A stretch of DNA of 64,000 nt from Oceanobacillus damuensis. Lineage in GTDB: Bacteria; Bacillota; Bacilli; Bacillales; Amphibacillaceae. The translations under genes and the position numbers were made by a program. The stretch is taken from assembly GCF_001618145.1 (NCBI RefSeq), contig NZ_LQNF01000013.1, positions 1 to 64,000 of the forward strand. The letters run 5' to 3'. The notes beneath the pieces were generated by a model, which was given only the letters and a program-made list of their open reading frames with translations, did not search any database and had not been told where the DNA came from. Positions 31,268-63,765 of this stretch are shown here, piece after piece. The first letter of the stretch is position 1, and each line of letters opens with the position of its first letter.

Positions 31268-33217
31268 TTACTTATGATTATGATGACAACTTGCATCTGT
31301 CTGTGCTGATGGACGCGGTAAATCTAATGCTGGGTTGCCGTCAAAGAAACCATGTGGTTTTAATGTGAACCCGATATATTCAGTCGGCATTACTGGCCAA
31401 TCTTCCGGACGTGTAATATGATGAACCCCCATATTATACCAAACAACAATATCCTCGTTTTCAATATTGCGGTTCGCTTTAACCCAATGATCCAGGGTAC
31501 CTCCACCTTTATTTTGGTTAGGATATTTCCCGGAAGCGTACTTTTGATCACGGTCAAACTTTGTAACATGCAAATGGTTTTTAATAAATCCTGCACGTTT
31601 CATTACACTTGATTCCTCGTGAAGAAATGGAACAGAGTTGTGACCAGGTACAAGAGCATAGCCTACTGGTTCACCAACATAGTTTTTAGAGTTAGGATTA
31701 ATAATCTTCCAACCCCGTGCTGTTTCAAGATTCATTCTTCGCTGTGCTTCCAATTCTGTTTGTAACGTTGTTGTTTCATGATAGAAAGCATTTAATTTTG
31801 GATTGTTTTTTGAATCAGGCTTTGATGCCACTGTGTTCCACTCTACAACGGAATTCTTTTGACCATCGATATGTGTATCGATACGATAGTTAAAAATGTG
31901 TTGGTGAATTGGTGCACTAATTTGTGGCGCAACCTCTGATCCATACCTTGGGTTTTGACCTTCTTCAATTGCACCAACGTTCAATATACCTGTTAATTTG
32001 GCTTCATGTTCGATTTTGCCATCTGTATAGAAGTACCAGAAGAATCCATAATCATAGTTTGCGACTGTAGTGAAGAATGAAATTACTAAACGACGGGAGC
32101 GACGTACTTCTACTTCTTCTGTTCTCCAGTCTGTATGTTTCCAGGCAATTCCATAATCTTCTTCATGAATACAGATCGCATTTGGAATTTTGTGAATCTC
32201 ACCTTTACTAGTTGCCATAACCGCATCTAAATAGCGAATTTCCCCTAGACAGTCACATCCTAGTGTTAGAGAGTTTGCTAACTGTCCAATTCCATATTCA
32301 CCTGCATCAAAAGCACATTGCCAATCATGAGCTGGATTTGTATCCCCATAAGGAACAACCATTTCCGATAAAGAAGCACGATATAGTACAGGTCTCTTTT
32401 TACCTTTATCATAATAATCGACTGTATTAAGCACTAGCCCTTCTCTAGCTGTATAACCAACCCGGATGTCCCACTTTTGCCATTTAATATTGTGCCCGTC
32501 AATCTCAAAGCTTGGCCCTTCTGGTTGCGTAATATTCAATGGTTTTAAGTCTGTACGAACTTCCATTTCCTCATTTTGCTCTGGGACATATGGTGCAGCT
32601 GTAGGCGCAATTGGCTTGACACCGTGATCTTCAATTCGTACAATTTCCATCTTTGCTAGATCAACTACAGGTAATAGTCCTGTAAGTGGATATGCATACG
32701 CATTATCACCGGGGAATTTTCTTACAAAACATAGTGCCTTAGCTAGTCTTTTTCCATCATCCTCTGGAAAACCAGTGTCACCAACAGACCATGGATCAAC
32801 CATAACTAGATCCGGGTTATCGATACCGCGTCTTTTTAAAGCGGCAATAAATTGAGGATCTTTTTTTACCGTTTCTTCAAGTTCTGAATATTCTTCAAAA
32901 AGAAATGACGGTTGAACACCTGGGATATGTTGATAAGATAATACCTCTTCATTTGTAATAGAGACTACTGCTTCGTACGTCGCACTATTAGAAGTGTCTA
33001 CGACAATAGCAAAGGCTTCGCGTTGAATCGGATCGCCTTCTTTAAAGTTTAATACAACTTCTTTAGGAGGTTCGTGTAAGCCAACTTGTTCAAATCTTGA
33101 AGCTGCCGTTAAATTCTTTTTATCTTTCAAAATAGCAACCGCTTGCAAAATTTCTTCTTCTGTTAATGGCTCAAGTGGGTGGTTTACCTTCGTAACTACT
33201 GATTCCTGAACTGACAT
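31268..33217 (-). CDS. Copper/TPQ primary amine oxidase (candidate methylamine oxidase)
   Basis: 649-aa copper-containing amine oxidase. The cofactor tyrosine lies in TVANYDYGF (Tyr388 becomes topaquinone), the catalytic Asp in AFDAGEYGIG (Asp304), and the copper ligands in HQHIFNYRID plus a downstream His. Length and lack of a signal peptide match the Arthrobacter enzymes, including methylamine oxidase, which feeds a RuMP pathway in Arthrobacter P1. It produces aldehyde, NH3 and H2O2. The location next to CopC/CopD and just before the RuMP genes supports methylamine as substrate, but tyramine or phenylethylamine remain possible. AAAGGGGAG precedes the ATG. Confidence 0.93.
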   Translation of the reverse strand: MSVQESVVTKVNHPLEPLTEEEILQAVAILKDKKNLTAASRFEQVGLHEPPKEVVLNFKEGDPIQREAFAIVVDTSNSATYEAVVSITNEEVLSYQHIPGVQPSFLFEEYSELEETVKKDPQFIAALKRRGIDNPDLVMVDPWSVGDTGFPEDDGKRLAKALCFVRKFPGDNAYAYPLTGLLPVVDLAKMEIVRIEDHGVKPIAPTAAPYVPEQNEEMEVRTDLKPLNITQPEGPSFEIDGHNIKWQKWDIRVGYTAREGLVLNTVDYYDKGKKRPVLYRASLSEMVVPYGDTNPAHDWQCAFDAGEYGIGQLANSLTLGCDCLGEIRYLDAVMATSKGEIHKIPNAICIHEEDYGIAWKHTDWRTEEVEVRRSRRLVISFFTTVANYDYGFFWYFYTDGKIEHEAKLTGILNVGAIEEGQNPRYGSEVAPQISAPIHQHIFNYRIDTHIDGQKNSVVEWNTVASKPDSKNNPKLNAFYHETTTLQTELEAQRRMNLETARGWKIINPNSKNYVGEPVGYALVPGHNSVPFLHEESSVMKRAGFIKNHLHVTKFDRDQKYASGKYPNQNKGGGTLDHWVKANRNIENEDIVVWYNMGVHHITRPEDWPVMPTEYIGFTLKPHGFFDGNPALDLPRPSAQTDASCHHNHK

Positions 33218-33734
33218 TAATCAAACTCCCCTTTACTAATAATTTTGTTAAGAACAATACTTGTACCAGTTTAAAGGTATCTTCAAATAACCTTTATCAG
33301 CTTGTTCTGGCTTAACAATACGTTGCTATGGCCTGCGATGAGTTATGAAGTATTGTCAATCGTTGTTTGGTGTCAAACTAACATTTTCCATCTTGTCCAG
33401 TACGGTAATAGAAATTGTTGTGTTGAAATATCCTTTTTACCCCTATTCAATAAGCCATTAATCACGCTCCTTTTAGTTATGCGCCTACATTGTGAAAGTA
33501 AATGCAGGATTATAGCGCTGATCGTTGGGTTTAATCATTTTAGAAAATACACCCAATTAAAACTTTACTCAATATTACGTCAATTAAACCTTAAATTTAT
33601 ATTAACTTAATACTTTTTCATATTATTGTAAAAAACGGAACTATCCCGTAAAAATAACTTTGGAAGGAATGTATAATAATTTCCCCCTCAATTATCGCAT
33701 TATATCAACCTTCTTACTTTAACAGTATATTTTT

Positions 33735-33764
33735 ATACACTATCTGAATTTAAAGTGCATACTT
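33735..33764 (+). promoter_or_regulatory. HxlR-like regulatory motif, site 1
   Basis: ATACACTATCTG, then AATTTA and AAGTGCATACTT. It lies about 55 bp upstream of the truncated PPDK-regulator gene. The same two-part motif precedes hxlA and other RuMP genes. The rest of 33218-33818 holds no supported gene. Confidence 0.65.
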
Positions 33765-33818
33765 ACAAATTAGAGAATTACACAGTATACTGATGTGTAA
33801 ATTAAAGGAGGGATAAAT

Positions 33819-34304
33819 ATGGATGTTTCAAACTTCGAAGAGAATACTCTCCGTAAAATGAAAGCAATTAACTTCACGATACATTATGATGATGGAAAAG
33901 ATTCAAAAGGTATTTTTGAAGCAGATATTGTTCTTATAGGCATTTCAAGAACATCAAAAACTCCTTTATCACAATATCTGGCTTATCGGGGACTCAAGGT
34001 GGTAAATGTGCCTGTTTTACCAGAAGTAGACCCGCCTAAAGAACTTTTTTTAGTGCCAGCAGAGAAGTGCTTTGGTTTAGCCTCTACGCGTGAAACACTG
34101 ATTAAGTTTCGAAGAGAAAGACTGAAGTCAATGGGTCTTAGCCCGGATGGAACTTATGCAAGTGTGGATAGGATTGAAAAGGAATTACGGCATTTCCAAA
34201 GAATTATAAAACGTATAGGATGTCGTGTAGTAGATGTTTCCAATCAAGCAATTGAAGAATCAGGGGATCTGATTTTTGATATATATCATGGGAAGACACG
34301 ATAA
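33819..34304 (+). CDS. C-terminal half of a PPDK regulatory protein (DUF299 kinase/pyrophosphorylase)
   Basis: 161 aa, against about 270 aa for normal pyruvate,phosphate dikinase regulatory proteins. It begins where the family's C-terminal part starts (AINFTIHYDDGKDSKGIFEADIVLIG) and retains the P-loop GISRTSKTPLSQYLA and the RIEKELRHFQRIIKRIG segment. The N-terminal ~100 residues are absent and no remnant is visible upstream. It has its own strong AAAGGAGGG site and an HxlR-like motif, so it looks expressed rather than dead. It might modulate PPDK or PEP synthesis during growth on C1 substrates (inference). Confidence 0.8.
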   Translation: MDVSNFEENTLRKMKAINFTIHYDDGKDSKGIFEADIVLIGISRTSKTPLSQYLAYRGLKVVNVPVLPEVDPPKELFLVPAEKCFGLASTRETLIKFRRERLKSMGLSPDGTYASVDRIEKELRHFQRIIKRIGCRVVDVSNQAIEESGDLIFDIYHGKTR

Positions 34305-34419: not shown

Positions 34420-34447
34420 ATACTATGTAATATTAAAGTCCGTACTT
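34420..34447 (+). promoter_or_regulatory. HxlR-like regulatory motif, site 2
   Basis: ATACTATGTAATATT and AAAGTCCGTACTT, about 90 bp upstream of the GAPDH gene. It diverges from the others by one or two bases in each half. Confidence 0.6.
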
Positions 34448-34539
34448 GTCATTAACTTATATATTGATAATAATATGATTATCGGAAGCCCAAACTTGGG
34501 TATGATAAGTAATTTTAAAGTTGGAGGAGGATGGTACAG

Positions 34540-35577
34540 GTGAAAAAACATAATGAGGAGGCAAAGGGCTTAGGTTTAAGTGGTACAGGAAGAATCGGTC
34601 GGCTGTTAATCCGAAAATTATTAGCCAATGACAGCAATCAACTGAACCTGAAAGCTATCAACTCTACTTCTACCCCAGAAACAGTCGCTCATTTATTAAA
34701 ATATGATACTGTTCATGGGAAGTGGGACGCAGATATTTCCATACAGGATGAAGGACTTTTGATAAATGGAAGTTACATCCATATGGTAAATGAACGTGAC
34801 CCAGAGCATATTCCTTGGGAGCGAATGAATGTAGGTACTGTGATTGATGCTACTGGAAAGTTTAACAATCGTGAAGGTGCAGAAAAACATAAAGCCGCTG
34901 GAGCGTCCCATGTTATTATTACAGCTCCCGGGAAAGAGATGGATTTAACAGTGGTAATGGGGGTCAATGATCATCTTTTGGATACTTCCAAACACACTAT
35001 TTTATCAGCAGCTTCGTGCACTACTAACTGTGTTGCTCCTGTATTAAGTGTTTTGGATCAGGCTTTTAAAGTTCACAGAGGTTGGATGACAACGGTTCAC
35101 GCTTATACTTCAGACCAAAGACATTTAGATAATCCACATAAAGATTTACGGAGAGCCCGTTCTTGCACCCAATCCATTGTCCCGACCACAACTGGAGTGG
35201 GAAAAGCACTTATTGATGTACTTCCACACCTTTCTTCTTCTATTGAAGGGATATCAATTCGTGTTCCTACACAGGACGTTTCATTAATCGATCTCACTGT
35301 TCAAGTACAGCAAGAGGTCACGGCCGAAGAAGTTAAATCGACATTTAGAGCAATACAATCGGGTACATTATCGCAATATATCGGTTATACGGAGGAGCCA
35401 TTAGTATCAGCGGATTATATAGGATCTGAAAAATCAGCAGTTGTAGATGGACTTTCGGTAATGGCAGCAGAAAATCAGATTAAAATATTAGCTTGGTATG
35501 ATAACGAATGGGCCTATGCATGCAGGGTTGCAGAATTGGCAAAAGCAGTAAATGATAAGATGATCTCTTACGTTTAA
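34540..35577 (+). CDS. Glyceraldehyde-3-phosphate dehydrogenase, GapB-like
   Basis: About 345-aa GAPDH. I prefer GTG 34540, nine bases after GGAGGAGG, over ATG 34531, which abuts the site. The catalytic Cys is in SAASCTTNCVAPVL, followed by HAYTSDQRHLDNPHKDLRRAR and the C-terminal WYDNEWAYACR. The nucleotide-binding loop KAINSTSTPETVAHLLKYDTVHG lacks the Asp of NAD-specific GapA and resembles GapB, suggesting NADP use. The N-terminal glycine motif is LSGTGRIGR instead of the usual INGFGRIGR. It leads a run of RuMP genes. Confidence 0.92.
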   Translation: MKKHNEEAKGLGLSGTGRIGRLLIRKLLANDSNQLNLKAINSTSTPETVAHLLKYDTVHGKWDADISIQDEGLLINGSYIHMVNERDPEHIPWERMNVGTVIDATGKFNNREGAEKHKAAGASHVIITAPGKEMDLTVVMGVNDHLLDTSKHTILSAASCTTNCVAPVLSVLDQAFKVHRGWMTTVHAYTSDQRHLDNPHKDLRRARSCTQSIVPTTTGVGKALIDVLPHLSSSIEGISIRVPTQDVSLIDLTVQVQQEVTAEEVKSTFRAIQSGTLSQYIGYTEEPLVSADYIGSEKSAVVDGLSVMAAENQIKILAWYDNEWAYACRVAELAKAVNDKMISYV

Positions 35578-35774: not shown

Positions 35775-36665
35775 ATGGCATTAGTTTCAATGAAAGAAAT
35801 GTTAATTCACGCAAAGGATAACGGGTATGCAGTAGGTCAATTCAACATTAACAATCTCGAGTTTACGCAGGCGATTCTGCAAGCTGCCCAAGAAGAAAAA
35901 TCCCCTGTCATTCTCGGTGTATCTGCTGGAGCTGGCAAGTATATGAGTGGTTTTAAATTTATCGGTAAGATGGTTCGGGCTTTGATCGAAGAACTGGACA
36001 TAACTGTACCAGTTGCTATTCATCTTGACCATGGCGCTAGCCTAGAAGAATGTGTACAAGCGATTCATGCTGGATTTACATCTGTAATGATCGATGGCTC
36101 CCATCTGCCACTTGAAGAAAATATCGCACTGACAAAACGTGTGGTTGAAGTAGCGCATGCTGTAGGTATTTCAGTTGAAGCAGAGCTTGGCCGCGTCGGA
36201 GCACAAGACAGTGGTGTCATTACAAATCCAGAAGAAGCCTATGCAATCCCAGCTGAATGTGAACAGCTTGTAAGAGAAACAGGTGTAGATTGTTTTGCTC
36301 CTGCACTAGGGTCTGTTCATGGACCATATAAAGGAAAACCAAATCTTGACTTTGATCGGATGTCCGAAGTACTGGAATTAACTGGTGTACCTCTTGTCCT
36401 TCACGGTGGTACAGGAATACCGACTGATGATATACAAAAAGCCATTTCATTTGGTTCCGCAAAAATTAATGTCAATACGGAAAATCAGATAGCTACGACA
36501 AATGCCGTTCGAGAGGTATTGGAAAGCAAACCTAACTTGTACGACCCTCGCAAATATCTTGGACCAGCTCGTGAGGCAATTAAAGAAACGGTCAGAAGTA
36601 AAATGCGTGAGTTCGGATCTTCCAATAAAGCTACAGAAAGTAGAGAAAAGGTGAGCGTATTATGA
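35775..36665 (+). CDS. fba: Class II fructose-bisphosphate aldolase
   Basis: 296-aa zinc-dependent aldolase. Zinc ligands are visible in [22 protein letters not shown] and VLHGGTGIP, and the C-terminal [18 protein letters not shown] is typical. It cleaves fructose 1,6-bisphosphate and can make sedoheptulose 1,7-bisphosphate in the RuMP rearrangement. It overlaps the transketolase start by 4 bp (translational coupling). An extra aldolase of this kind accompanies tkt, glpX, pfk and rpe on the methylotrophy plasmid of Bacillus methanolicus. Confidence 0.95.
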
Positions 36666-38665
36666 TTGAACAAAAAGTAAACGTTGAACAGCTTTCCATC
36701 AATACAATCAGAACATTGTCAATTGATGCTATTGAAAATGTGGGGTCTGGTCATCCAGGCCTTCCAATGGGTGCAGCGCCAATGGCCTATACCCTCTGGA
36801 CAAAATTAATGAATCACAACCCTAGTAATCCAAATTGGTTTAACCGTGATCGATTTACCTTGTCTGCAGGTCATGGCTCAATGTTATTATACAGCCTGCT
36901 GCATTTGACTGGTTATGATCTATCATTAGAAGACCTAAAAAACTTCCGCCAATGGGGCAGCAAAACTCCTGGGCATCCGGAATATGGTCATACACCTGGT
37001 GTTGAGGCTACAACAGGTCCATTAGGACAAGGAATTGGTATGGCAGTTGGAATGGCTATGGCTGAAAGGCACTTAGCTGCTACTTATAATCGAGATGATT
37101 TTAATATCATTGACCACTACACATATAGTCTTTGTGGTGATGGTGATCTTATGGAAGGTGTGTCGGCAGAAGCTGCTTCACTTGCGGGACACCTCAAACT
37201 GGGACGTTTAATTGTACTGTATGATTCGAACGATATTTCACTTGACGGGGATCTTGATAAGTCATTCAGTGACCGAACTGCTAGTCGATTTGAATCGTAT
37301 GGTTGGCAGGTTTTGCGTGTCGAGGATGGTAATGACATCGGTGCAGTTGAACAGGCCCTGTCAGAAGCAAGGGAAAACAAAAACCAGCCAACATTGATTG
37401 AAGTGAAGACAGTAATAGGCTACGGTTCTCCAAACAAAGGTGGTAAATCCGCTTCACATGGTGCACCTCTTGGGAAAGATGAAATAAAACTGGTAAAACA
37501 AAACTATGGATGGGAATATGATGAAGCATTTTATATTCCTGATGAAGTAAAAGCACATTTCTCAGTACTGAAGGAAGCGGGAGAACAAAAAGAACGACTC
37601 TGGAATGAATTGTTTGAACAATATCAAAAAGCATATCCAACGTCGGCTAAAGAATTAACCCAATCCATCAATGGTGACCTTCCAGAAGGATGGGATGCAG
37701 ATATCCCACATTATGAAATTGGGAAAGACAACTTAGCTACTCGTGCTTCCAGTGGAAAGGTATTGAATGCTTTTGCAAAAAACATACCAGAGTTATTCGG
37801 TGGTTCTGCTGATTTATCCTCTTCTAATAAAACATTCTTAGAAGGAGAAAGCGACTTCACCCCTGAAGATTATGCAGGCCGAAATATTTGGTTTGGAGTA
37901 CGTGAATTCGGAATGGGAACTGCACTTAACGGGATGGCTCTTCATGGGGGCTTAAGAGTATTTGGAGCAACATTCTTTGTTTTCTCAGACTATTTACGTC
38001 CTGCAATTCGTTTATCAGCACTAATGAAAGTACCTGTAACTTATGTTTTCACACATGATAGCATCGCTGTTGGTGAAGATGGTCCAACACATGAACCAGT
38101 TGAGCATTTAGCATCGTTGCGTGCAATGCCAGGATTGTCTACAATCCGACCGGCTGATGGGAACGAGACTGCAGCTGCCTGGAAATTGGCATTAGAAAGT
38201 AAAGATGAACCAACTGCACTTGTTCTGACACGTCAAAACTTGCCAACACTTATTGATCCAAAAACAGCATATGATGGTGTCAGCAAAGGTGCGTACGTGA
38301 TTTCTGAGGCAAAAGGTGACATTAGTGGGTTGTTATTAGCTTCCGGATCTGAGGTCGCTTTAGCTGTAGAAGCACAGAAGCAACTTGAAGAAGAGGGTAT
38401 TTTTGTCTCTGTTGTCAGTATGCCAAGCTGGGATCGATTTGAAAAACAATCCGATGCATATAAAGAAAGTGTACTGCCAAGCAATGTGAAAGTACGTCTT
38501 GGGATTGAAATGGGATCTTCATTTGGTTGGGGGAAATACCTTCATGAAAAAGGCCATGTACTGAGCGTCGATCAATTTGGAGCTTCTGCACCTGCGAATA
38601 AAATACTTGAAGAATATGGGTTTACCGTTGAAAATGTAGTTTCCCAGTTCAAAAAGCTTATTTAA
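36662..38665 (+). CDS. tkt: Transketolase
   Basis: 667-aa ThDP-dependent transketolase. The ThDP/Mg motif starts at [20 protein letters not shown], with [13 protein letters not shown] at the N-terminus and [22 protein letters not shown] in the pyrimidine domain. It moves two-carbon units to regenerate ribulose 5-phosphate for formaldehyde fixation. It overlaps fba by 4 bp and is followed by two hairpins before rpiB. Confidence 0.96.
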
Positions 38666-38791: not shown

Positions 38792-39235
38792 ATGAAAGTT
38801 GCAATCGCGTCTGATCATGGAGGTATAAACATTCGTAAAGAAATAACCTCATTGTTGGAAGAAATGAATATTGAATTCATAGATTTAGGGTGTGAATGTA
38901 CCAATTCTGTTGACTATCCAGATTATGCTTTTCCGGTAGCTAATAAAGTTTCAAGCGGTGAGGTAGATCGCGGCATTCTAATTTGCGGTACAGGTATCGG
39001 TATGAGTATTGCGGCAAACAAGGTAAAAGGGGTTCGTTGTGCACTCGTTCATGATACATTTAGCGCTCGGGTAACCAGAGAGCATAATGATACCAATATA
39101 TTAGCAATGGGAGAAAGAGTGATTGGCCCGGGACTTGCCCGCGATATTGTAAAAGTATGGCTGGACACGAACTTTGAGTACGGAAGGCATGAAAATCGTG
39201 TGAATAAAATAAAAGCATATGAAGTTAGCTCTTGA
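38792..39235 (+). CDS. rpiB: Ribose-5-phosphate isomerase B
   Basis: 147-aa RpiB/LacAB-family isomerase. SDHGG at residues 7-11, VDYPDYAF, the active-site loop ICGTGIGMSIAANKVKGVRCA and the TREHNDTNILAMG segment are all present. It interconverts ribose 5-phosphate and ribulose 5-phosphate, the formaldehyde acceptor precursor. AGAAGGAGG precedes the ATG. It ends the first plus-strand RuMP run. Confidence 0.95.
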   Translation: MKVAIASDHGGINIRKEITSLLEEMNIEFIDLGCECTNSVDYPDYAFPVANKVSSGEVDRGILICGTGIGMSIAANKVKGVRCALVHDTFSARVTREHNDTNILAMGERVIGPGLARDIVKVWLDTNFEYGRHENRVNKIKAYEVSS

Positions 39236-41543: not shown

Positions 41544-41607
41544 TCGAATCCTCCTTTTAAGTTAAAATCTTTGTTAATTAATTATAACTCGTACAGTACT
41601 GACTTAT

Positions 41608-54082: not shown

Positions 54083-54112
54083 AAGTACGCACTTTAAATA
54101 CATATAGTGTAT
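54083..54112 (-). promoter_or_regulatory. HxlR-like regulatory motif, site 6 (hxlA copy 2)
   Basis: AAGTACGCACTTTAAAT then ACATATAGTGTAT on the plus strand, the mirror image of site 5, about 82 bp upstream of hxlA copy 2. Confidence 0.75.
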
Positions 54113-54613: not shown

Positions 54614-54643
54614 ATACACTATATGAATTTAAAGTGCGTACTT
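54614..54643 (+). promoter_or_regulatory. HxlR-like regulatory motif, site 7 (hxlA copy 3)
   Basis: ATACACTATATG, AATTTA, AAGTGCGTACTT, identical to site 5, about 80 bp upstream of hxlA copy 3. The stretch 54113-54613 between sites 6 and 7 shows no gene. Confidence 0.75.
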
Positions 54644-54723
54644 TTAATACTGAATGTTCTAACATATAATCGAAGTAAGCACCAAATCAAATCTATTAAT
54701 TTTACTAAGGGAGTGGCATGTTC

Positions 54724-55365
54724 ATGGAATTACAATTGGCATTGGATTTAGTTAATATCCCGGAAGCAAAGAAAATAGTAGAGGAGGTACAGGATCATAT
54801 CGACATCGTCGAAATTGGTACACCGGTCGTCAAAATTGAGGGGTTAAAAGCGGTAAAAGAAATCAAAGAAGCCTTCCCCCATTTACAAGTGCTTGCAGAT
54901 TTAAAAACAATGGATGCTGCAGGGTACGAAGTCTTAAAAGCATCTGAGGCAGGTGCCGATATCGTCACTATTCTTGGGGTTGCTGAAGATGCATCTATCA
55001 AAGGTGCTGTCGAAGAAGCGAGAAAGCAAGGCAAGAAAATTCTTGTTGATCTGATCGCAGTAAAGGATATTAAGAAAAGAGCTAAAGAACTTGATGCACT
55101 TGGTGTAGACTACATCTGTGTACACACTGGTTATGACTTGCAGGCAGAAGGCAAGAACTCATTTAAAGACCTTGAGACGATTAAAAAGGTTGTAAAGAAC
55201 GCAAAAACTGCTATCGCTGGTGGAATCAAGTTGGAAACGTTGCCAGAAGTGTTGAAGTCACAGCCTGATCTTGTTATTGTTGGTGGCGGTATTGCTAACC
55301 AGGAAGATAAAAAAGCTGCAGCTGCCGAAATTCAAAGTTTAATTAAAGAAGCAGCTCTTGCTTAA
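54724..55365 (+). CDS. hxlA: 3-Hexulose-6-phosphate synthase, copy 3 (operon with hxlB)
   Basis: 213 aa, starting at ATG 54724 (MELQLALDLVNIPEA); the ATG at 54718 is out of register with the other copies. It differs from copy 1 at about a dozen residues, mostly near the C-terminus. The DLKTMD motif is intact. It is followed 17 bp later by hxlB, so this is the complete hxlAB operon, while copies 1 and 2 are extra synthases. Confidence 0.96.
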   Translation: MELQLALDLVNIPEAKKIVEEVQDHIDIVEIGTPVVKIEGLKAVKEIKEAFPHLQVLADLKTMDAAGYEVLKASEAGADIVTILGVAEDASIKGAVEEARKQGKKILVDLIAVKDIKKRAKELDALGVDYICVHTGYDLQAEGKNSFKDLETIKKVVKNAKTAIAGGIKLETLPEVLKSQPDLVIVGGGIANQEDKKAAAAEIQSLIKEAALA

Positions 55366-55382
55366 GGAGGGAACGTTCAATT

Positions 55383-55943
55383 ATGGAAACAAAGGAATTT
55401 TTAAACGAAATTATAAAAGAGTTAAATAACACATCTAGTTTAATATCTGAATCAGAAGCGCAAAACCTGATCAATAATATCCTTGAATCGAAAAAGGTTT
55501 TTGTAGCTGGAGCTGGTCGTTCAGGATTGATGGCTAAGTCTTTTGCAATGCGCATGATGCACATGGGTATAAACGCATATGTAGTAGGTGAAACCGTTAC
55601 ACCGGGATTGGATAAGGATGACATATTAATTATTTCATCTGGATCAGGTGGAACTAAGAGTTTAGTATCAATGGCAGAAAAGGCTAAAAGCATTGGTGCA
55701 AGAGTTGCACTTGTTACAATATCACCTGATTCTCCGATCGGAAATTTAAGCGACCTTTCTGTTAAAATACCGGCCAAACCTAAAGAGGCTGGTAATGATA
55801 GCCAACATAAAACAATACAGCCAATGGGGTCGCTGTTCGAACAAAGTCTCCTTTTATTCTACGATGCTTTAATATTAAGAATGATGGATAGAAACGAACT
55901 GGATTCGGAAACTATGTTTGGAAAACATGCGAATCTGGAGTAG
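55383..55943 (+). CDS. hxlB: 6-Phospho-3-hexuloisomerase
   Basis: 186-aa SIS-domain isomerase that turns hexulose 6-phosphate into fructose 6-phosphate. The sugar-binding stretch VFVAGAGRSGLMAKSFAMRMMHMG and the ISSGSGGTKSLVSMAEKAK segment are diagnostic. The C-terminal PMGSLFEQSLLLFYDALI motif is present. AAGGAGGGAACG precedes the ATG. It is the only isomerase in the window, serving three synthases. Confidence 0.96.
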   Translation: METKEFLNEIIKELNNTSSLISESEAQNLINNILESKKVFVAGAGRSGLMAKSFAMRMMHMGINAYVVGETVTPGLDKDDILIISSGSGGTKSLVSMAEKAKSIGARVALVTISPDSPIGNLSDLSVKIPAKPKEAGNDSQHKTIQPMGSLFEQSLLLFYDALILRMMDRNELDSETMFGKHANLE

Positions 55944-56259: not shown

Positions 56260-57867
56260 TTATGACACGTTTGATATTTGACTGGTAATGATGATAATTA
56301 CGATTGCTGCAGCAACCGCAACATATGGTAAAATACCTGCTCTCTTCTTAAATCCTTTTTCATCCTGTTCGTTTTGCGTTTGTTCAGGAAATTGCCCTTT
56401 GTCAGTAATGTAGTGTCTGTACACAAACAAAGGAATAGCGATCAGGGAAACTAACAAGCCCGATAGGAGTGTGCCTTTTCCCCAAACCAGTGCACCCAAA
56501 CCTAAGAAAGCAATATTGACAAAGGCTAATACTATGTTAATTGACAAAAGCCATGTCGGTACTTTAAATGGTCGCGCCCAGTTTGGACGATCGAGCCTGT
56601 GAATCCATCCAGCATTCAAATTGAAAAAGTTAAATATAATATAATTCACATTTGAAATAGCTAGGATAAATGTATAGTCTGACAAAGAAAGCAAAATAAC
56701 ATTAAATCCTAAATTTGTCCACATAGCTCCAGTGGGAGCCCCATTACGATTTACACGGGAGATGAACTTTGGAAACCATCCATCTACAGATCCTTGGTAT
56801 ATTGTACGAGACGACCCGCCCATAGAAGTCATGATGGATAATACGGTAGAGAGAATCAGCAACAGAACAAGAACCGTTTCTATCAGAAGGCCTCCGCCTA
56901 CCATCACGGCCATTGCTGAACCTACACCCATTCCACTTTCAATGCCGGGATCCAGTAAGCCTTCCGGTCCGAAAAAGTTTTGAAAGGAAAATGGAACAAG
57001 TGTGAACACTAGTAAACATAAAAGCCCTGAAAATATGATCGCTTTATAGGTGTCCTTTTTAGGATTTTTAAATTCACTAGTATAACAGATAGCGGTTTCA
57101 AAAGCATACGTAGACCAAGCAGCTAAAAATAATCCACCGAACAGTAACGTCCATCCTGCTGAATCCCAAGAGACTCCAGTTGGAAGACTAGGGGTTATGT
57201 TTTCTATACTAATTCCTTGGGTAATCAGTGGTACGATCCCTACAATAAGCAGTGGGATAAGAGCCACGACAGCAAGTATTCTTTGAATACGCGCAGCATT
57301 TACGGCACCCAAATTTTGGATTAAAAACACCGCTGCAAGAAAAGTAAGTGCAAGCACGAAGCTAAAGTCGAAACGTACGGTAAGACCTGGGCGTATAAAA
57401 CCTAATTCCAGCAGTGTAATACCCCAAGTAGTAATAGCTGCAGTTGGAAAAAATGTCGTCAAGACGAAACCTGAAGCCAGTTTAGTTCCTAATGCCAATA
57501 CTGGAGTCCAAGCTATCCAATTGCTCCATATGGACATTGCAGATAAAAACTTCGAATATTTCACCCATGCCATAGCGCCATATACAGATGCTCCACCAGA
57601 CTTATTAGGATATAAACCAGCAATTTCAGCGTATAAAAAAGACTGAATGAACCCAATTGTGATGGATAGTGTCCAAACCAGCCACGATAGACCTCCCACA
57701 GTGGCTGCAATAGCCCCAATTGAAAATAAAACTAATGCTGGTACCCCGCTCGCAAACCAAAAAGCATCCTTCCATGTCATTTCTTTTTTTAATCCTTGGG
57801 ATGCTTCCTCATCTTTCGGGATTTCTTCTTCCGGCAATGATTCTTTTAATAGTTCACTCACAAGCAT
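56260..57867 (-). CDS. APC-superfamily permease (candidate amine transporter)
   Basis: 535-aa permease. The start MLVSELLKE at 57867 follows AAGGAGG by five bases; the frame to 57915 is longer but unsupported. About twelve hydrophobic segments; GVPALVLFSIGAIAATVGGLSWLVW and AEIAGLYPNKSGGASVYGAMAWV resemble amino acid/polyamine/organocation transporters. Cytosolic ends are charged. It lies between hxlB and the HODM operon. Methylated amines, or choline-derived compounds, are plausible cargo, but the family is broad. Confidence 0.82.
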   Translation of the reverse strand: MLVSELLKESLPEEEIPKDEEASQGLKKEMTWKDAFWFASGVPALVLFSIGAIAATVGGLSWLVWTLSITIGFIQSFLYAEIAGLYPNKSGGASVYGAMAWVKYSKFLSAMSIWSNWIAWTPVLALGTKLASGFVLTTFFPTAAITTWGITLLELGFIRPGLTVRFDFSFVLALTFLAAVFLIQNLGAVNAARIQRILAVVALIPLLIVGIVPLITQGISIENITPSLPTGVSWDSAGWTLLFGGLFLAAWSTYAFETAICYTSEFKNPKKDTYKAIIFSGLLCLLVFTLVPFSFQNFFGPEGLLDPGIESGMGVGSAMAVMVGGGLLIETVLVLLLILSTVLSIMTSMGGSSRTIYQGSVDGWFPKFISRVNRNGAPTGAMWTNLGFNVILLSLSDYTFILAISNVNYIIFNFFNLNAGWIHRLDRPNWARPFKVPTWLLSINIVLAFVNIAFLGLGALVWGKGTLLSGLLVSLIAIPLFVYRHYITDKGQFPEQTQNEQDEKGFKKRAGILPYVAVAAAIVIIIITSQISNVS

Positions 57868-58013
57868 CAAGACCTCCTTGGTATTTAAACAATAAAGAAT
57901 TGATTTACCTTTCACAGATATGAAAGAATATATCTAAGGTGCCAACTAAATCTATTACAACACTTGTTTTGCGAAAGGACTGCATTCCGCAAATGAGCTG
58001 TAAGAAAGCGCAT

Positions 58014-58237: not shown

Positions 58238-59200
58238 CTACAAGTCTAAGACAATGCTGCCATTCTTTGTTTTTGCTCGTGATATACACGTGCAAATGAC
58301 ACTTTTTTCTTGTTTCTCCTTATCTGTAAGGAAGAAATCCCTGTGATCAACTTCCCCATCCAGTACGTCTACTTGACAACTACCGCATCCTCCGATTTTG
58401 CAAGAATACGGAGCATCGATACCATGATTCAATAAAGTATCGAGCAAGGTTTCTCCTTCTGGCACTTCTAATACTTTATTGCTTCTATTTAATTTAACTT
58501 GGAAAGGTTCCATTGGACCAAAGTCTGGTGGGACAAAAAGTTCAAAATGAATATTTGTATCAGGGTACCCATATGATTTCGCTGACTCTGAATATTCGTT
58601 TATCATTCTTTCAGGGCCACAGAAATATACATGGGTTCCGATCGGCTGATTTTTCATTAAATCGGTCGTCATCCTATTGCCTTCCTCTGAAAAGTAAAAT
58701 TTAGTTTCATCTGGATAAACCGAATTCAGAAAGGAATAAAAAGCACATAATTCCTTTGAACGTGCAGCATAATGCAATTCAAATGATTTTCCTTTCTTTC
58801 TCAAATCTGCTGCCATGGCGATAAAAGGCGTTATTCCGATACCTGCTGCAATTAAGATATGGTGTTTGGCGCTGAAACTAAGTGCAAAGTGATTTTTTGG
58901 ATAACTGATTTTCAGCTGGTCTCCTTCTTTTATACGATCATGCCAGCATATCGAGCCACCTTTTGATTCATCATTTCGGCGGATAGCAATTTGGTAGTAA
59001 TCTGATTGGTCTGGGTCATTTATTAAGGAATAATTATTTTCATAAATATTCTGATCGATTTGTACATATGTTTTAACATGAGATCCTCCGCCACAGCGCA
59101 GCAGCCTTGAAGTATCAATGGGCTTTAGTTTAAAACTTTTAACCTGTGGAGATTCACACCTAATCTCTTCTACAACAACATCGATGGTATTTCCAGACAT
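58238..59200 (-). CDS. Ferredoxin-type oxidoreductase of the N-demethylase system
   Basis: 320-aa reductase, starting at ATG 59200 after AAAGGAGG. The N-terminal flavin/ferredoxin-reductase barrel is followed by an NAD domain (HILIAAGIGITPFIAMAADLRKKG). The C-terminal plant-type 2Fe-2S ferredoxin has CKIGGCGSCQ and ICTC cysteines. This is the phthalate-dioxygenase-reductase/VanB layout. It begins two bases before the preceding gene ends and should deliver electrons from NAD(P)H to the heme N-demethylase two genes upstream. Confidence 0.9.
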   Translation of the reverse strand: MSGNTIDVVVEEIRCESPQVKSFKLKPIDTSRLLRCGGGSHVKTYVQIDQNIYENNYSLINDPDQSDYYQIAIRRNDESKGGSICWHDRIKEGDQLKISYPKNHFALSFSAKHHILIAAGIGITPFIAMAADLRKKGKSFELHYAARSKELCAFYSFLNSVYPDETKFYFSEEGNRMTTDLMKNQPIGTHVYFCGPERMINEYSESAKSYGYPDTNIHFELFVPPDFGPMEPFQVKLNRSNKVLEVPEGETLLDTLLNHGIDAPYSCKIGGCGSCQVDVLDGEVDHRDFFLTDKEKQEKSVICTCISRAKTKNGSIVLDL

Positions 59201-59201
59201 C

Positions 59202-60023
59202 TTATTTTTTCCTCCTTTCCACACCAATTACTGCTTCTTCAGCTTTCACATAACCAAGATATGCGCCAAGCCTTCTTGAATAATGACTAGAAACCTCTAA
59301 CTTCGTATTGCAGTGTTCACAAATCATTTCTTCTATTTCATCGCCTGTTTGATTTGTATTAAAAGCGTAGCACTTTACACACATAATTTTTTCCTTTTTC
59401 TGTCCTAACCCATTATATTGAATTTCATCATCTGTAAAACCTGAATTATAAGCTACGTTTTTAACGAAATTAATCATCGACCAGGATCCAGAAATATAAA
59501 GTCTTGTACCAATTACTTGGTTATTGAAAATAGTTTGCAGCTTAAAATTGTCTAAAGAAGTTATTAAGTTAATGTTATGGTAGTGCTGAAGATAACCCAA
59601 TAATTCTCCTTGTTCCCCTGCTTTGACATAAACATTGGCTTCAACCCCATTGAAAGATAGAAAGTCAATAATCACTAGATTGTCAAACAGGGCCGCTTCT
59701 TCCATTAACAGCAACATTTTCTTGCATCGTTCAGGGATTTTAAAATGTGAATATTCGGAAATATTAATTTCAAAAAAATCACCTTCAGATATTGAAAGGT
59801 ATTCTCCGTTGTTGATTGAAGTGTTGATAAAGAGACGACATATTCCTTCTTCATTTGTTTTAATCAAATAGACAGGAAGTTGAATAGTAGTTTCATTGCA
59901 CACTATTTGATCTGCATAAGCAATCATGTTTGGGATAGAGCCCTTGGTCAATTCGACTTCTGCAATATGACCTTGTTCAAATGTCTTTAATTTGCTGAGA
60001 AGCTTACAATTAATTGGATGCAT
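59202..60023 (-). CDS. Dimethylamine monooxygenase DmmA-like subunit with C-terminal zinc ribbon
   Basis: 273 aa. The C-terminus is diagnostic: CVKCYAFNTN, then CEHCNTKLEVSSHYSRRLGAYLGYVKAEE, a four-Cys ribbon followed by the SRRLGAYxGY motif of DmmA-family small subunits in dimethylamine monooxygenase operons. The first 190 residues have no recognised catalytic motif and may be a degenerate ferredoxin-reductase-like fold. It lies between the heme subunit (18 bp away) and the reductase (overlap of stop and ribosome site). Name is by family resemblance only. Confidence 0.75.
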   Translation of the reverse strand: MHPINCKLLSKLKTFEQGHIAEVELTKGSIPNMIAYADQIVCNETTIQLPVYLIKTNEEGICRLFINTSINNGEYLSISEGDFFEINISEYSHFKIPERCKKMLLLMEEAALFDNLVIIDFLSFNGVEANVYVKAGEQGELLGYLQHYHNINLITSLDNFKLQTIFNNQVIGTRLYISGSWSMINFVKNVAYNSGFTDDEIQYNGLGQKKEKIMCVKCYAFNTNQTGDEIEEMICEHCNTKLEVSSHYSRRLGAYLGYVKAEEAVIGVERRKK

Positions 60024-60041: not shown

Positions 60042-61025
60042 TTATTTTATTGAAGAAGAGCCTTCTATCCTCTGTTTCAAGTATTCCAGTATTTCATCTT
60101 TATATGAAATAAAACCTTTATATTCCGCTATATCATTTGGTATGTCATCCATAATATTATAGAATTGATATTTCCATTGCTTATTCTTAATCAACTCTTC
60201 AAGAGTAATCAGATGTGTGTGAATACTAAACAAAATACCATTACTGCGTGGTAGACGAAATAACCTCTGATCCTCTACTCTTAAATTAACTAATTGACCA
60301 GCGTTATCAGCGGTGACATTTCCTTTTTTCGGTCCCCATTCTCCAAATGTCTCTGGTGCAGTATCAAGAATCGGCTCAATTGTTAACGTCCAATTATATC
60401 TGGTCCAAGGCTGCTCAGCTTCAATTCTTAAAATGAAATCGCGAACCTTCTCAACTAAACCACTGCCAGAAAAGGCATGTGGAACAGGATTGTGTATTTC
60501 TAAAAATTCCATCCCTAAATCAAATGCAATTGACCAATCAGCCGGGAAACATAGCTGTCCAGCGTCCATATATAGCTTTCCGTCTCTTTGTCCCAGATAA
60601 ACTAAATCTTCTTGAACATGCCGGCCAATAAAGTCTAATGGTTCATAAGGCAAGCTGGAAAGATCACCAAAAGTAAAGGTTTCTTCTTCTCCTAGTAGAT
60701 GGTTTCGAAATACCCAGTAGTTTCTTTCTTTCTTTAGACTAAAATAGTTTGGGTGGATGGATACCATCTCGTGCATAATCATTTCCAGTATTTCCCACTG
60801 AGCTTCAATAGAATGTGGGAAAGATTGGAAAGTCTGTTCTTTTCTGCTCTCTAATAGTTCTCGTTTTAGTTTAATTTCCTCGAAATATTCTGGAGTAATG
60901 TCAAGTACATACGGGGGATCAAGTTTCCTGGAATTATTAGAATATCTATAGGAATCTGTAGTAAATGGGAACGGAAAACGTTCTAATAAAGGTTTGCTCA
61001 TAATTTTTGCACTCTGTGTAACCAT
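60042..61025 (-). CDS. Heme-dependent oxidative N-demethylase (DUF3445/HODM) catalytic subunit
   Basis: 327-aa protein of the DUF3445 family. The start MVTQSAKIMSKPLLERFPFPF at 61025 follows AAAAGGAGG; the frame to 61085 has no site. Typical segments: QDQ-like RKLDPPYVLDITPEYFEEIKLKRELL, EMIMHEMVSIHP, DAGQLCFPADWSIAFDLGMEFLEIHNPVP, and LRVEDQRLFRLPRSNGILFSIHTHL. HODM uses heme in a PAS-like fold to oxidise dimethylamine to methylamine and formaldehyde. It is the first gene of a three-gene operon controlled by an HxlR-like motif, linking it directly to formaldehyde assimilation. Confidence 0.88.
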   Translation of the reverse strand: MVTQSAKIMSKPLLERFPFPFTTDSYRYSNNSRKLDPPYVLDITPEYFEEIKLKRELLESRKEQTFQSFPHSIEAQWEILEMIMHEMVSIHPNYFSLKKERNYWVFRNHLLGEEETFTFGDLSSLPYEPLDFIGRHVQEDLVYLGQRDGKLYMDAGQLCFPADWSIAFDLGMEFLEIHNPVPHAFSGSGLVEKVRDFILRIEAEQPWTRYNWTLTIEPILDTAPETFGEWGPKKGNVTADNAGQLVNLRVEDQRLFRLPRSNGILFSIHTHLITLEELIKNKQWKYQFYNIMDDIPNDIAEYKGFISYKDEILEYLKQRIEGSSSIK

Positions 61026-61094
61026 TATGTTATTCCTCCTTTTAAGGTACTGAATATTCAGAAATAAACTCTTACAACTGACCAAGCTTCATAA

Positions 61095-61215
61095 TAAATC
61101 GGAACGTAATTTCTCTTTCCAATTACTTATTGTATTGCATATTCAGATTGATTGGCGGTTACTTAGATAGCGCTTTCATTAACTTTTGCATCATTCATAC
61201 ATTATAGTAGTTATG
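61095..61215 (-). pseudogene. Remnant of a cupin gene's 3' end upstream of the HODM gene
   Basis: CTTAGATAGCGCTTTCATTA and GCATCATTCATAC at 61160-61200 align with the 3' part of the intact cupin gene at 63403 (TAGATAGCGCTTCCATCAC, GCATCAAAAAG). The adjacent flank CTTTCCAATTAC also matches. The reading frame is destroyed. The intact cupin and a HODM remnant lie 2.2 kb further on. Confidence 0.7.
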
Positions 61216-61430
61216 AACTTAGAGGTAATTTTTTCAATAAATCCTTTGATCTTCCTGGCCTGACAAATAGGATTCTCACATGACTACGCTTTCAATATTA
61301 TTCTGACTGCAATTCTGCCTTCGCATTTTATAGTAGTTTTCCAGGGAATCATTAGATCACCTTTCCTCGCTCCTTTCCGTACATCCTTTGAATCGCATAC
61401 TTTATTATAAATCAGATTAGGATGTGAAAA

Positions 61431-61458
61431 AAGTACGCACTTTTAATTCATATAGTAT
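61431..61458 (-). promoter_or_regulatory. HxlR-like regulatory motif, site 8 (HODM operon)
   Basis: AAGTACGCACTT, TTAATTC, ATATAGTAT, closely matching sites 4 and 6, about 405 bp upstream of the HODM start. The long distance suggests either a long leader or that the cupin remnant separates an older promoter from the gene. No other gene lies between. Confidence 0.7.
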
Positions 61459-61568: not shown

Positions 61569-62936
61569 TTATGAAGGAATTCTTTTTACTTCTTCTTCCT
61601 CCTCATTAAGTGCAGCAAATTTTTCTTCTGGAGCATCTTGGTTGATGCGGTACCTTGCCCATGTGAAGTAATAAATACTTGCTACGGCGAAAATACCGAT
61701 GTTAATTACGAAAAAGACAGGATCCTTAAAAATACTGGAGAATAAAGCAATTATGCTAATGATAATACAGACGATAGGCACAACTGGGTAAAATGGTGCT
61801 TTATACGGGCGATTCAGATTTGGTTCTTTTTTCCTTAAAACCATTAGTGATATGTTCATCATAATGTAAGACACTAACGCTCCAAATGTAGCGATTAAAA
61901 TTAATCGATCCGGATTGAACATTAGAACAAACACGAAACCAATTGCTCCCGGAACAAGGATTGCCATATATGGTGTGCGGCGCTTCTCATTTAGCTTAGA
62001 CAGAAATTTAGGGAAATACCCAGCTCTTGACAATGCAAAGGTTTGTCTGGAATATGCCAAGATTGCCCCTGCTAAGCTTGCAAGCATTCCGAATAAACCA
62101 ACTACAGAGAGGACACTGATTAACCATGAATTTTCATTGACACCAGTGGCAATCGCATAGGAAAGTGGGTTTTCTTCTACAGATGCTCCAGCTGCTCCAC
62201 CAAGGCCAACGGTAACTGTAACCACAAGGAACGCAAGGATAACAAGTGTAAAAATCGCTCTCATAATCCCTTTAGGCATGTCCTTAACGGGGTCACGGCA
62301 CTCTTCTGCAAGCATTGGCAGCATTTCCATACAAATATACAACCACATCGCATAAGGAAGTGCAGCCCATATACCGGAGATTCCACCAGGGATGAGTCCA
62401 CCTTCAAATAATTTTTCAGCGGTAATATGTGGCATCCCATAAAAAGAGAAAAGTAATACAACACCTACAGAGATAGTAACAAGAATCATCTCGATTGTTG
62501 CGTATTCATTCACACCTAAGATATGAACAATAAAGAAAAACACATATAAAACTGCAGCAGCTAGAATAGGATCGATTGCAGGAATCAGGAAATTCACGTA
62601 ATAACCTGCCCCAGCTGTGAACACCGCTGTACCTACCGCAAATTCTAATGTAACACCTACACCAGTAAGAAACCCAGCATATGGCCCCATTGCTCTTCTA
62701 GTAAAAGCATATGCCCCTCCAGCATGTGGCATTGCTGTTGTCAGCTCCGATAATGATAGGCACAATGTTACATACATAAGACCTATTATCGCAGTAGCAA
62801 TCAACATTCCAATTAAACCTGATTCAGCCAGACCGTAGTTCCAACCAAAATATGACCCCGAAATAACGATTCCCACACCCAAGCCCCATATTTGTAAAGG
62901 ACCTAAAACCTTTTTTAATTCCATATTATTACTCAA
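61569..62936 (-). CDS. Ethanolamine-permease-like APC transporter (candidate methylamine carrier)
   Basis: 455-aa permease with about twelve helices. The opening LKKVLGPLQIWGLGVGIVISGSYFGWNYGLAESG is characteristic of the ethanolamine transporter (EAT) branch of the APC superfamily. PHAGGAYAFTRRAMGPYAGFLTGVGVTLEF is also typical. It lies between the HODM operon and the second cupin. Since the branch carries short primary amines and the context is amine oxidation, methylamine or dimethylamine uptake is a plausible role; ethanolamine remains the default. Confidence 0.85.
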   Translation of the reverse strand: MSNNMELKKVLGPLQIWGLGVGIVISGSYFGWNYGLAESGLIGMLIATAIIGLMYVTLCLSLSELTTAMPHAGGAYAFTRRAMGPYAGFLTGVGVTLEFAVGTAVFTAGAGYYVNFLIPAIDPILAAAVLYVFFFIVHILGVNEYATIEMILVTISVGVVLLFSFYGMPHITAEKLFEGGLIPGGISGIWAALPYAMWLYICMEMLPMLAEECRDPVKDMPKGIMRAIFTLVILAFLVVTVTVGLGGAAGASVEENPLSYAIATGVNENSWLISVLSVVGLFGMLASLAGAILAYSRQTFALSRAGYFPKFLSKLNEKRRTPYMAILVPGAIGFVFVLMFNPDRLILIATFGALVSYIMMNISLMVLRKKEPNLNRPYKAPFYPVVPIVCIIISIIALFSSIFKDPVFFVINIGIFAVASIYYFTWARYRINQDAPEEKFAALNEEEEEVKRIPS

Positions 62937-63164
62937 AATTTTCCCCCTTATTTATTAAATATTTTAATTTCATAAGTCTTTGTACAGATAAAAGTCTGAC
63001 AACAATACGTAACATCCTCTTAGAAAATTAGTCGTTACTTCATTCTTGGACTTATCAAAAAGGAATATGGATAGTTTCAGTTTCCTATACTCGAAACAAA
63101 CAATGGCAACCATAGGTCCATCAGAAATAAATGTGGAAAGGGTTAGCAGCTCTTTGTTGGGTTT

Positions 63165-63265
63165 TAATTAACAGGAATCTTCATTAAGTGAATATGGAAA
63201 AACGACCTTATAAAGGTTTGCTCACAATTTTGTCATTTATAGAACTACTATGTTATTCCTCCCTT
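63165..63265 (-). pseudogene. Remnant of a second HODM gene (5' end)
   Basis: On the minus strand GGAGGAATAACATA is followed by an eroded start and AGCAAACCTTTATAAGGTCG, then TTTTTCCATATTCACTTAAT and GATTCCTGT. This aligns with the intact HODM start at 61025 (GGAGGAATAACATA, AGCAAACCTTTATTAGAACG, GATTCCTAT). Stop codons interrupt the frame. It lies directly downstream of the intact cupin paralogue 2. Confidence 0.75.
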
Positions 63266-63402
63266 CTAACTAAACTGAAGATCAGATAAATCTTCCGCAG
63301 CTTACCGATTGCACTTCATAATAGCCTTGCTGATAATCATTGAGGTGATTATAATGCAGTTTTCCTTCTCTATTTCTTTCCAATTACGCCTTTTAAATCA
63401 TA

Positions 63403-63765
63403 TTAAGATTTACGATGCCTTGTATAGATAGCGCTTCCATCACTTTCCGCATCAAAAAGGACTGTTGTAGTGGGTGTGAAAATTAAAGCATCGCCTTCTT
63501 CTGCCACAAACTTTCTGCCTTTATCATCTCGTACAGCAATCTTTCCTTTTGCAACAGTTTGTATTTCCAACAACTCATATGTGATCTTAAACTCTTCCTT
63601 ATGCGTATCGAAGTAACCCATTTCAGTTGAACTTACAGGCACATTAAAAAATTGTATTGTATTTGTAAGTTTTTTTGTTTCATAACTGCCTGCTTTTATC
63701 AGCTGTATACCTGGATTCTGATTTAGATACTTGTAATTTATTTTTGACAATGTCTTCTCACTCAT
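63403..63765 (-). CDS. Small cupin-domain protein, paralogue 2
   Basis: 120-aa single-domain cupin, about half identical to the cupin at 48401. Shared blocks: KYLNQNPGIQLIKAGSYETKKLTN, EFKITYELLEIQTVAKGKIAVRDDKG, and EGDALIFTPTTTVLFDAESDGSAIYTRHR. It lacks the paralogue's last residues. AGCGAAGAGGATG precedes the ATG. Its original position appears to have been directly upstream of a HODM gene, so a role in amine or formaldehyde handling is plausible. Function unknown. The final stretch 63766-64000 shows no gene. Confidence 0.8.
   Translation of the reverse strand: MSEKTLSKINYKYLNQNPGIQLIKAGSYETKKLTNTIQFFNVPVSSTEMGYFDTHKEEFKITYELLEIQTVAKGKIAVRDDKGRKFVAEEGDALIFTPTTTVLFDAESDGSAIYTRHRKS

Follow-up and report, generated by a model that had tools for sequence, protein, structure and literature searches.

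The window analyzed here, bases 1-64000 of a contig (NZ_LQNF01000013.1) in the 4.12-Mb draft genome (73 contigs) of Oceanobacillus damuensis, harbors an island that encodes a heme N-demethylase (HODM, with its partner proteins DmmA and DmmB), a copper amine oxidase and the enzymes of the ribulose monophosphate (RuMP) cycle, in which a private operator-promoter precedes the demethylase operon and RuMP genes alike. We consider it likely that this is an island for methylotrophy on methylated amines that is run by formaldehyde. The original prediction, made from the letters of this stretch, had proposed methylated amines as growth substrates; this proposal is now supported at the gene level, while the parts of it that concern the substrate of the amine oxidase and growth on amines as carbon rather than nitrogen still have the standing of predictions. 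Gene families were called by hidden Markov model (HMM) scans (Pfam, NCBIfam) against curated cut-offs, and relatives were drawn from a genus sample of 28 genomes and an order sample of 397 genomes in 135 genera.

The enzymes named in the original prediction (HODM, copper amine oxidase, HxlA/HxlB, fba, tkt, rpiB, glpX, pfkA, rpe, zwf and gnd) were all found by the HMM scans, to which we add a permease of the trimethylamine N-oxide (TMAO) type (56260), an HxlR gene (47093-47449), gap (34531), EutQ-like cupins and eight operator boxes. HxlA, HxlB, HODM, DmmA, amine oxidase, TMAO permease, gap, zwf, gnd, fba, tkt, rpiB, glpX, pfkA and rpe scored above their curated cut-offs, with the three hxlA copies at 289-296 bits (cut-off 200) and hxlB at 260 bits (cut-off 160). 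The HxlA copies are mutually 91-95% identical, and a genome search placed the only above-cut-off HxlA genes (these 3 copies) and the sole amine oxidase of the genome inside the island. As judged by shared boxes, the island extends beyond the window to contig position ~67.4 kb. Its features in the window are given below, called by HMM scan unless other evidence is stated, with percent identities to pBM19, the methanol plasmid of Bacillus methanolicus; gene order further places a Gfo/Idh-type oxidoreductase gene between rpiB and glpX and a HAD phosphatase gene between pfkA and gnd (HMM scans).

29384-31081, minus strand: copD-like and copC-like copper genes adjoining the amine oxidase (below NCBIfam cut-offs; CopC above the Pfam cut-off)
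31268-33217, minus strand: copper/topaquinone (TPQ) primary-amine oxidase, putative methylamine oxidase (938.9 bits, cut-off 651; TPQ motif NYDY; no operator box upstream)
33819-34304, plus strand: ppsR, N-terminal part deleted
34531-35577, plus strand: gap (glyceraldehyde-3-phosphate dehydrogenase)
35775-36665, plus strand: fba (77%)
36662-38665, plus strand: tkt (80%)
38792-39235, plus strand: rpiB
40563-41543, minus strand: glpX (67%)
41720-42694, minus strand: pfkA (76%)
43877-46903, minus strand: zwf-gnd, dissimilatory arm (gnd from 43877, zwf from 45374)
47093-47449, plus strand: HxlR, formaldehyde-responsive activator by homology (PF01638, 133.9 bits; PDB 7bzd, 192 bits; FNCGKEL with Cys11 and Lys13)
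47618-48259, plus strand: hxlA copy 1
48392-48793, plus strand: EutQ-like cupin 1
49591-50379, plus strand: 262-residue protein of no Pfam or NCBIfam family (near dmm genes in genomes G075 and G134)
50615-51787, plus strand: major facilitator superfamily (MFS) transporter
52366-53025, minus strand: rpe (89%)
53357-54004, minus strand: hxlA copy 2
54718-55943, plus strand: hxlA copy 3 (from 54718) and hxlB (from 55383)
56260-57915, minus strand: TMAO-permease-like APC transporter, TmoP type (NF053774, 750.8 bits, cut-off 690)
58238-59227, minus strand: DmmB-like reductase (FAD/NAD, 2Fe-2S)
59202-60023, minus strand: DmmA-family subunit (77.5 bits, cut-off 60)
60042-61025, minus strand: HODM alpha subunit (DUF3445, PF11927; 229 bits, cut-off 25; PDB 5lte)
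61569-62936, minus strand: ethanolamine-permease-like APC transporter
63403-63765, minus strand: EutQ-like cupin 2 (its box lies past the window, at contig 64012-64064)

The heme alpha subunit of family PF11927 is adjoined by a DmmA subunit and a 2Fe-2S reductase, and the solved HODM, 5lte, was the only PDB sequence that it matched (E 2e-82); the three genes thus encode a dimethylamine monooxygenase of the DmmABC type, with putative activity on dimethylamine. The HODM start is probably the ATG at 61025 rather than position 61085. With hxlA, hxlB, fba, glpX, tkt, rpe and rpiB all in place, the island holds the genes of the bisphosphatase variant of the RuMP cycle, in which GlpX would be the putative sedoheptulose bisphosphatase.

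Repeat analysis revealed a common element upstream of eight genes or operons in the window, consisting of a 28-nt box (consensus ACTATATG-N5-AAAGTGCGTACTT) and, at a spacing of exactly 21 nt in 8/8, a -10 hexamer reading TATAAT, TATACT or AATAAT:

33739-33791, plus strand: HxlR-type box and -10 before ppsR
34422-34474, plus strand: HxlR-type box and -10 before gap-fba-tkt-rpiB
41581-41633, minus strand: HxlR-type box and -10 before glpX
46968-47020, minus strand: HxlR-type box and -10 before zwf-gnd
47512-47564, plus strand: HxlR-type box and -10 before hxlA1
54056-54108, minus strand: HxlR-type box and -10 before hxlA2
54618-54670, plus strand: HxlR-type box and -10 before hxlA3-hxlB
61404-61456, minus strand: HxlR-type box and -10 before the HODM operon (-10 at 61404-61409; also before hodm in the related genomes G016 and G025)

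Scored with leave-one-out matrices, all eight sites reached 27.9-45.3, with the best other spot in the 64 kb at 4.1 or less and a top score of 8.1 in 30 first-order random copies of the window. A genome-wide pattern search placed 11/11 sites with at most 2 mismatches inside the island (33.7-67.4 kb of the contig), and the reversed pattern had a single match in the genome. Three of these boxes lie just past the window, before cupin 2, before the gene of a protein similar to one encoded after amine oxidases elsewhere, and before a second hxlR. No box stands directly before the permeases or rpe of the island, and none precedes the amine oxidase, so these genes are probably under other control. 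In the relatives we counted 11 boxes in G025 and 13 in G016, with one before hodm in 3/3 island genomes. As side observations, the second hxlR (contig 66829-67167) is 83% identical to the first, keeps the sensor residues and has a weaker box upstream, and a lone box with 3 mismatches on another contig (223130-223182) lies near an HxlR-family gene of 59% identity.

HxlR controls hxlAB, and the island HxlR is closest in the PDB to HxlR of B. subtilis (192 bits, the next protein at 123). The same box, with the 21-nt spacing, precedes hxlA on plasmids of Bacillus, Priestia and Peribacillus (3/3), two of which carry it upstream of zwf too. In a scan of 12 hxl loci of the genus, taken from a longer list, it exceeded 24 bits before hxl genes in 8/9 of the other loci examined; the hxl locus of Paenibacillus cellulosilyticus is without it (8.1 bits). 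On pBM19, boxes stand before glpX (37.5 bits) and rpe (35.7 bits), at positions 5465 and 14957, with the next best spot at -6.6 and none directly before fba, pfk or mdh. In the B. subtilis protein, formaldehyde joins Cys11 and Lys13 by a methylene bridge (PMC7835342), and a review names HxlR as the Hps-Phi regulator in B. methanolicus and B. subtilis (PMC8879981). Given that the same box precedes hxlA elsewhere and recurs on pBM19, and that Cys11 and Lys13 are kept, we surmise that HODM most likely lies within a formaldehyde-activated HxlR regulon alongside the RuMP cycle, with HxlR predicted to bind these boxes. A broader proposal, to which we would give even chances, is that HxlR acts beyond hxlAB as master switch for RuMP methylotrophy in Gram-positive bacteria, controlling fixation, regeneration and oxidation, and that in this genus it has captured the N-demethylase to form an autocatalytic formaldehyde on-switch; this would also account for the response of glpX and rpe on pBM19 to methanol induction.

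From family knowledge and gene context we postulate the following route: 1) dimethylamine, or TMAO yielding it, may enter through the APC permeases; 2) HODM, DmmA and DmmB would use NAD(P)H and O2 to convert dimethylamine to methylamine and formaldehyde; 3) the copper amine oxidase may convert methylamine to formaldehyde, ammonia and H2O2; 4) HxlA and HxlB would fix formaldehyde on ribulose-5-phosphate, with glpX, fba, tkt, rpe and rpiB regenerating the acceptor and zwf-gnd able to oxidize carbon to CO2; 5) formaldehyde would cross-link Cys11 and Lys13 of the island HxlR, which would then activate up to eleven promoters at the sites located here (eight in the window and three past it), that of the HODM operon among them. 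Basal demethylation would thus yield formaldehyde, render HxlR active and raise both the sink and the demethylase. Because HODM itself would make formaldehyde, this amounts to a positive feedback loop, which the co-induced formaldehyde sink may hold in check.

The same gene set, which the original prediction had suggested seeking in related genomes, recurs in locally rearranged form in two other species of the genus (G016 and G025), the three island genomes sharing the same gene blocks across 32-38 kb. The rearrangements comprise extra hxlA and cupin copies and an rpe that is moved or turned; in G025 another transporter replaces the MFS gene and copC/copD were not found, while in G016 copC/copD (61-67% identity) are also beside the amine oxidase. 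Shared island proteins are 61-96% identical among the three genomes (extra cupin copies 47-50%), and the G016 assembly is broken by gaps within two hxlA copies and at one other place. The island of G025 is chromosomal, on a 4.40-Mb contig. Since the same blocks are found in G016 and G025, and since dN/dS was 0.26 or less in 9/9 genes compared with both, the island is more than a chance assembly. Within the genus sample, HODM occurs in 3/28 genomes, and these 3 and no others carry the amine oxidase (Fisher p 0.0003, uncorrected for kinship), with HxlB above cut-off in 23/28. Bacillus sp. OV166 carries a rearranged set (hxlA-hxlB-amine oxidase, rpe, IclR, HODM-DmmA-DmmB, a TMAO-type permease, pgi and a hemA-type gene), and G368, from another family, has hxlA-eutQ-HODM-DmmA-DmmB on one short contig and an amine oxidase, both permeases, hxlR and hxlA-hxlB on another.

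Surroundings of HODM were read at 80/80 order loci, mostly over ~20 kb (7-18 kb in nine, owing to a contig end or less being taken, and 60 kb in one). The reductase is alongside in 80/80 and a recognizable DmmA in 63/80; a cupin is a neighbor in 5 (G000, G075, G134, G224 and G368), hxl in 2, an amine oxidase in 1 and an aldehyde dehydrogenase in 11, the amine oxidase of the window, at 28 kb from HODM, lying beyond the stretch used for this count. HODM identity to that of the window is at least 62.6% in the five cupin genomes and at most 56.3% in all others. In a tree of 87 rows (G130 was left out, its gene being split), these five join G016, G025 and OV166 in one group with a Shimodaira-Hasegawa-like approximate likelihood ratio (SH-aLRT) of 94; in an earlier tree of the best 30 of the 80 order loci, with one identical pair (G224 twice), the group without G134 was supported at 94/94. 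The HODM family is therefore ordinary in the order, but the clade of the island is tied to one-carbon (C1) genes, with eutQ, amine oxidase or hxl neighbors in 8/8 members examined. In the amine oxidase tree the window, G016, G025, G368 and OV166 form a 100/100 clade, with the enzymes of G075 and G224 outside it (that of G224 grouping with genes that lie near aldehyde dehydrogenases); the HODM and amine oxidase trees are concordant for five genomes and not for G224. We regard the demethylase as tied to the RuMP genes because the island recurs in three species, HODM and the amine oxidase fall in the same 3/28 congeners, their trees agree for five genomes and not for G224, and one private operator-promoter stands before both the demethylase and RuMP genes.

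A number of observations weigh against the methylotrophy reading and have to be set beside these data. PF11927 is present in 80/397 order genomes and 26/135 genera, and at 64/80 HODM loci the 7-60 kb read contains neither cupin nor hxl genes, nor a gene for an amine oxidase, a TMAO permease or an aldehyde dehydrogenase, zwf/gnd being near 5 of them; with the family this common and so many loci without such neighbors, HODM alone is no proof of dimethylamine methylotrophy, and an orphan HODM as a sufficient sign of it was ruled out. Co-occurrence across the order is modest, with HODM in 8/18 amine-oxidase genomes vs. 3.6 expected (p 0.015), and within the HODM clade 7/8 genomes have the amine oxidase, G134 being without it. 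OV166, G368 (where the contig ends just upstream), G075, G224 and G134 showed no box near hodm, so that a box before this gene is known from this genus alone, and an IclR-type gene lies near hodm in OV166, G075 and G224. No HxlR-type box stands directly before the amine oxidase, whose relatives also serve aldehyde-dehydrogenase contexts. A TMAO demethylase of the DUF1989 type, as expected of a trimethylamine (TMA)/TMAO pathway, was found in 0/6 genomes searched, our own included, which leaves the TMAO permease without a known partner enzyme. Dimethylamine growth of this bacterium is itself a prediction from gene content. The absence of C1 genes and aldehyde dehydrogenase near HODM in 64/80 order genomes would suit an accidental neighborhood, in which HODM, as an orphan enzyme, demethylates some other N-methyl compound and merely came to lie among hxl genes; with the island HODM in the separate C1-linked clade described above and the box before hodm in 3/3 island genomes, we hold this to be very improbable.

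The copper amine oxidase retains the TPQ motif NYDY and the copper residues (HxH and a third His) that mark the cofactor and copper sites of the Arthrobacter P1-type enzyme, and from genomic context we infer methylamine as its substrate. Its best PDB matches are AGAO-type enzymes, followed by peroxisomal ones of which one was deposited as a methylamine oxidase, and its tree sorts neither by neighbor context nor by substrate. It may alternatively serve ethylamine, aromatic or longer amines, with the methylamine from HODM excreted or otherwise used, such that only the HODM step feeds the RuMP cycle. This would be in keeping with a phenylethylamine oxidase as the best solved relative, the gene of actinobacterial kin beside aldehyde dehydrogenase, ethanolamine permease and acs, a nearby aldehyde dehydrogenase in three Bacillales genomes with kin enzymes (G346, G305 and G366), the lack of a box upstream, and the presence, ~3.9 kb past the oxidase gene of the island, of a gene (25956-27416) for an MMSDH-type aldehyde dehydrogenase. 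We nevertheless judge such a substrate unlikely, as the OV166 amine oxidase lies ~420 bp downstream of box-hxlA-hxlB, related enzymes adjoin hxlAB in OV166 and Paenibacillus and belong to a RuMP cluster in Arthrobacter, and no GmaS candidate offers a substitute: the first enzyme of the N-methylglutamate route is missing, 2/2 glutamine-synthetase-type genes being ordinary type I GlnA. Past the window, a protein under an HxlR box (contig 65608-66222) has homologues that, in several Bacillales, are encoded directly 3' of amine oxidases; in the present genome the two genes are ~33 kb apart.

A further alternative concerns the fate of the carbon. If the amines were scavenged for ammonia and the RuMP genes merely disposed of formaldehyde through the dissimilatory loop, with no net carbon growth, the box-controlled zwf-gnd would suffice; hxlAB with an HxlR-type gene on plasmids of B. 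subtilis, Priestia and Peribacillus (with zwf in two of three, and boxes upstream of zwf too) and HxlB in most congeners, as counted above, are consistent with such a role. Detoxification needs neither the box-controlled gap-fba-tkt-rpiB and glpX nor pfkA and rpe, the last two at 76% and 89% identity to the methanol plasmid set, and we thus find nitrogen scavenging with detoxification rather improbable next to methylotrophy on methylated amines.

Around hodm, short repeats at 60975-61193 and 63199-63454 (82 nt at 71% by blastn; 30-38 nt direct repeats) suggest that a eutQ-hodm segment was duplicated, with eutQ retained in one copy and hodm in the other, and eutQ precedes hodm in G075, G368 and G134. 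The idea that the hodm leader holds a complete pseudo-eutQ gene was rejected, tblastn giving nothing significant and only the short DNA repeats linking both regions. A known riboswitch before hodm was ruled out as well, Rfam finding only an S-adenosylmethionine (SAM) riboswitch at 21631-21741, which precedes a sulfonate-type ABC transporter operon. A copy of hemA (glutamyl-tRNA reductase) near HODM in Bacillus badius pPM400, OV166, G387 and G406 may perhaps serve heme supply, and a cytosine permease gene is also near HODM in B. badius. In the island, the N-terminal deletion of ppsR (33819-34304, a regulator of phosphoenolpyruvate synthase or pyruvate, phosphate dikinase) seems to spare the start, the G025 copy being full-length and preceded by a box. 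The 262-residue protein has clear homologues in 4 other genomes of the 397 plus two marginal matches, lying directly 3' of dmmB in G075 and amid the dmm genes of G134, and a single-sequence structure prediction gave a mean predicted local distance difference test (pLDDT) of 33. The MFS transporter (50615-51787) is also in G016, and near that place G025 has a cytosine-permease-like gene. Elsewhere in the window, 947-12474 holds an apparent carbon-phosphorus lyase (phn) operon with a phosphonate transporter and a GntR regulator.

A literature search, with most subscription papers outside its reach, turned up neither a link between HODM and the RuMP cycle nor an HxlR regulon that takes in regeneration genes or a demethylase. 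RuMP methylotrophy on methylamine has already been published for Bacillus; HODM as the entry step and the wider reach of the HxlR regulon appear to be new. Two methylamine isolates, Bacillus sp. 37MA and 72, carry amine oxidases and a RuMP cluster; for the dimethylamine step, the accessible part of that 2015 genome survey suggests a trimethylamine monooxygenase, reports none in those strains and gives no separate candidate (PMC5023230). The island supplies candidate genes by which Gram-positive methylotrophs may oxidize dimethylamine, and it predicts a single formaldehyde-sensing switch for the entire C1 pathway. It also suggests a testable answer to the induction of RuMP genes on the B. methanolicus methanol plasmid, a 2021 paper having noted that the fba-tkt operon of pBM19 was still without a described regulator (PMC8119897), and a self-contained, formaldehyde-responsive RuMP module would be useful for building synthetic methylotrophs.

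Among known systems, Bacillus sp. 37MA and 72 resemble the island in their copper amine oxidases, several Hps, Hpi, EutQ, a cluster of zwf, gnd, pfk, fba, tkt, glpX, rpe and rpi, and growth on methylamine and not methanol; in contrast to the island, the accessible part of that account reports no dimethylamine monooxygenase gene, describes no HxlR box, and lists three amine oxidase copies with gene numbers that suggest another gene order (PMC5023230). The set fba-tkt-glpX-pfk-rpe, which the original prediction had equated with that of B. methanolicus, is indeed that of pBM19 (by the plasmid sequence, each of the five is 67-89% identical), where two boxes of the same type precede glpX and rpe, and the top 3 matches of tkt among 718 plasmid records are all from B. 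methanolicus. B. methanolicus differs from the island in having an alcohol (methanol) dehydrogenase as the entry enzyme, a plasmid-borne set and a chromosomal hps-phi; that an N-demethylase here takes the place of methanol dehydrogenase, as had been proposed, fits the gene set. As in DmmABC of Ruegeria and Methylocella (PMC5520151) and in the HODM of 5lte, the heme subunit, DmmA and reductase form one cluster, with the heme subunit 39-43% identical to the proteobacterial ones; a GcvT-type aminomethyltransferase is alongside in 4/4 proteobacterial dmm loci read, whereas in the island HxlA/HxlB occupy the place of this partner, which is presumably folate-linked. With B. subtilis HxlR/hxlAB the island shares an HxlR orthologue with a Cys-x-Lys sensor and a box before hxlA, and its predicted regulon adds to these the regeneration genes and an enzyme that would itself produce formaldehyde.

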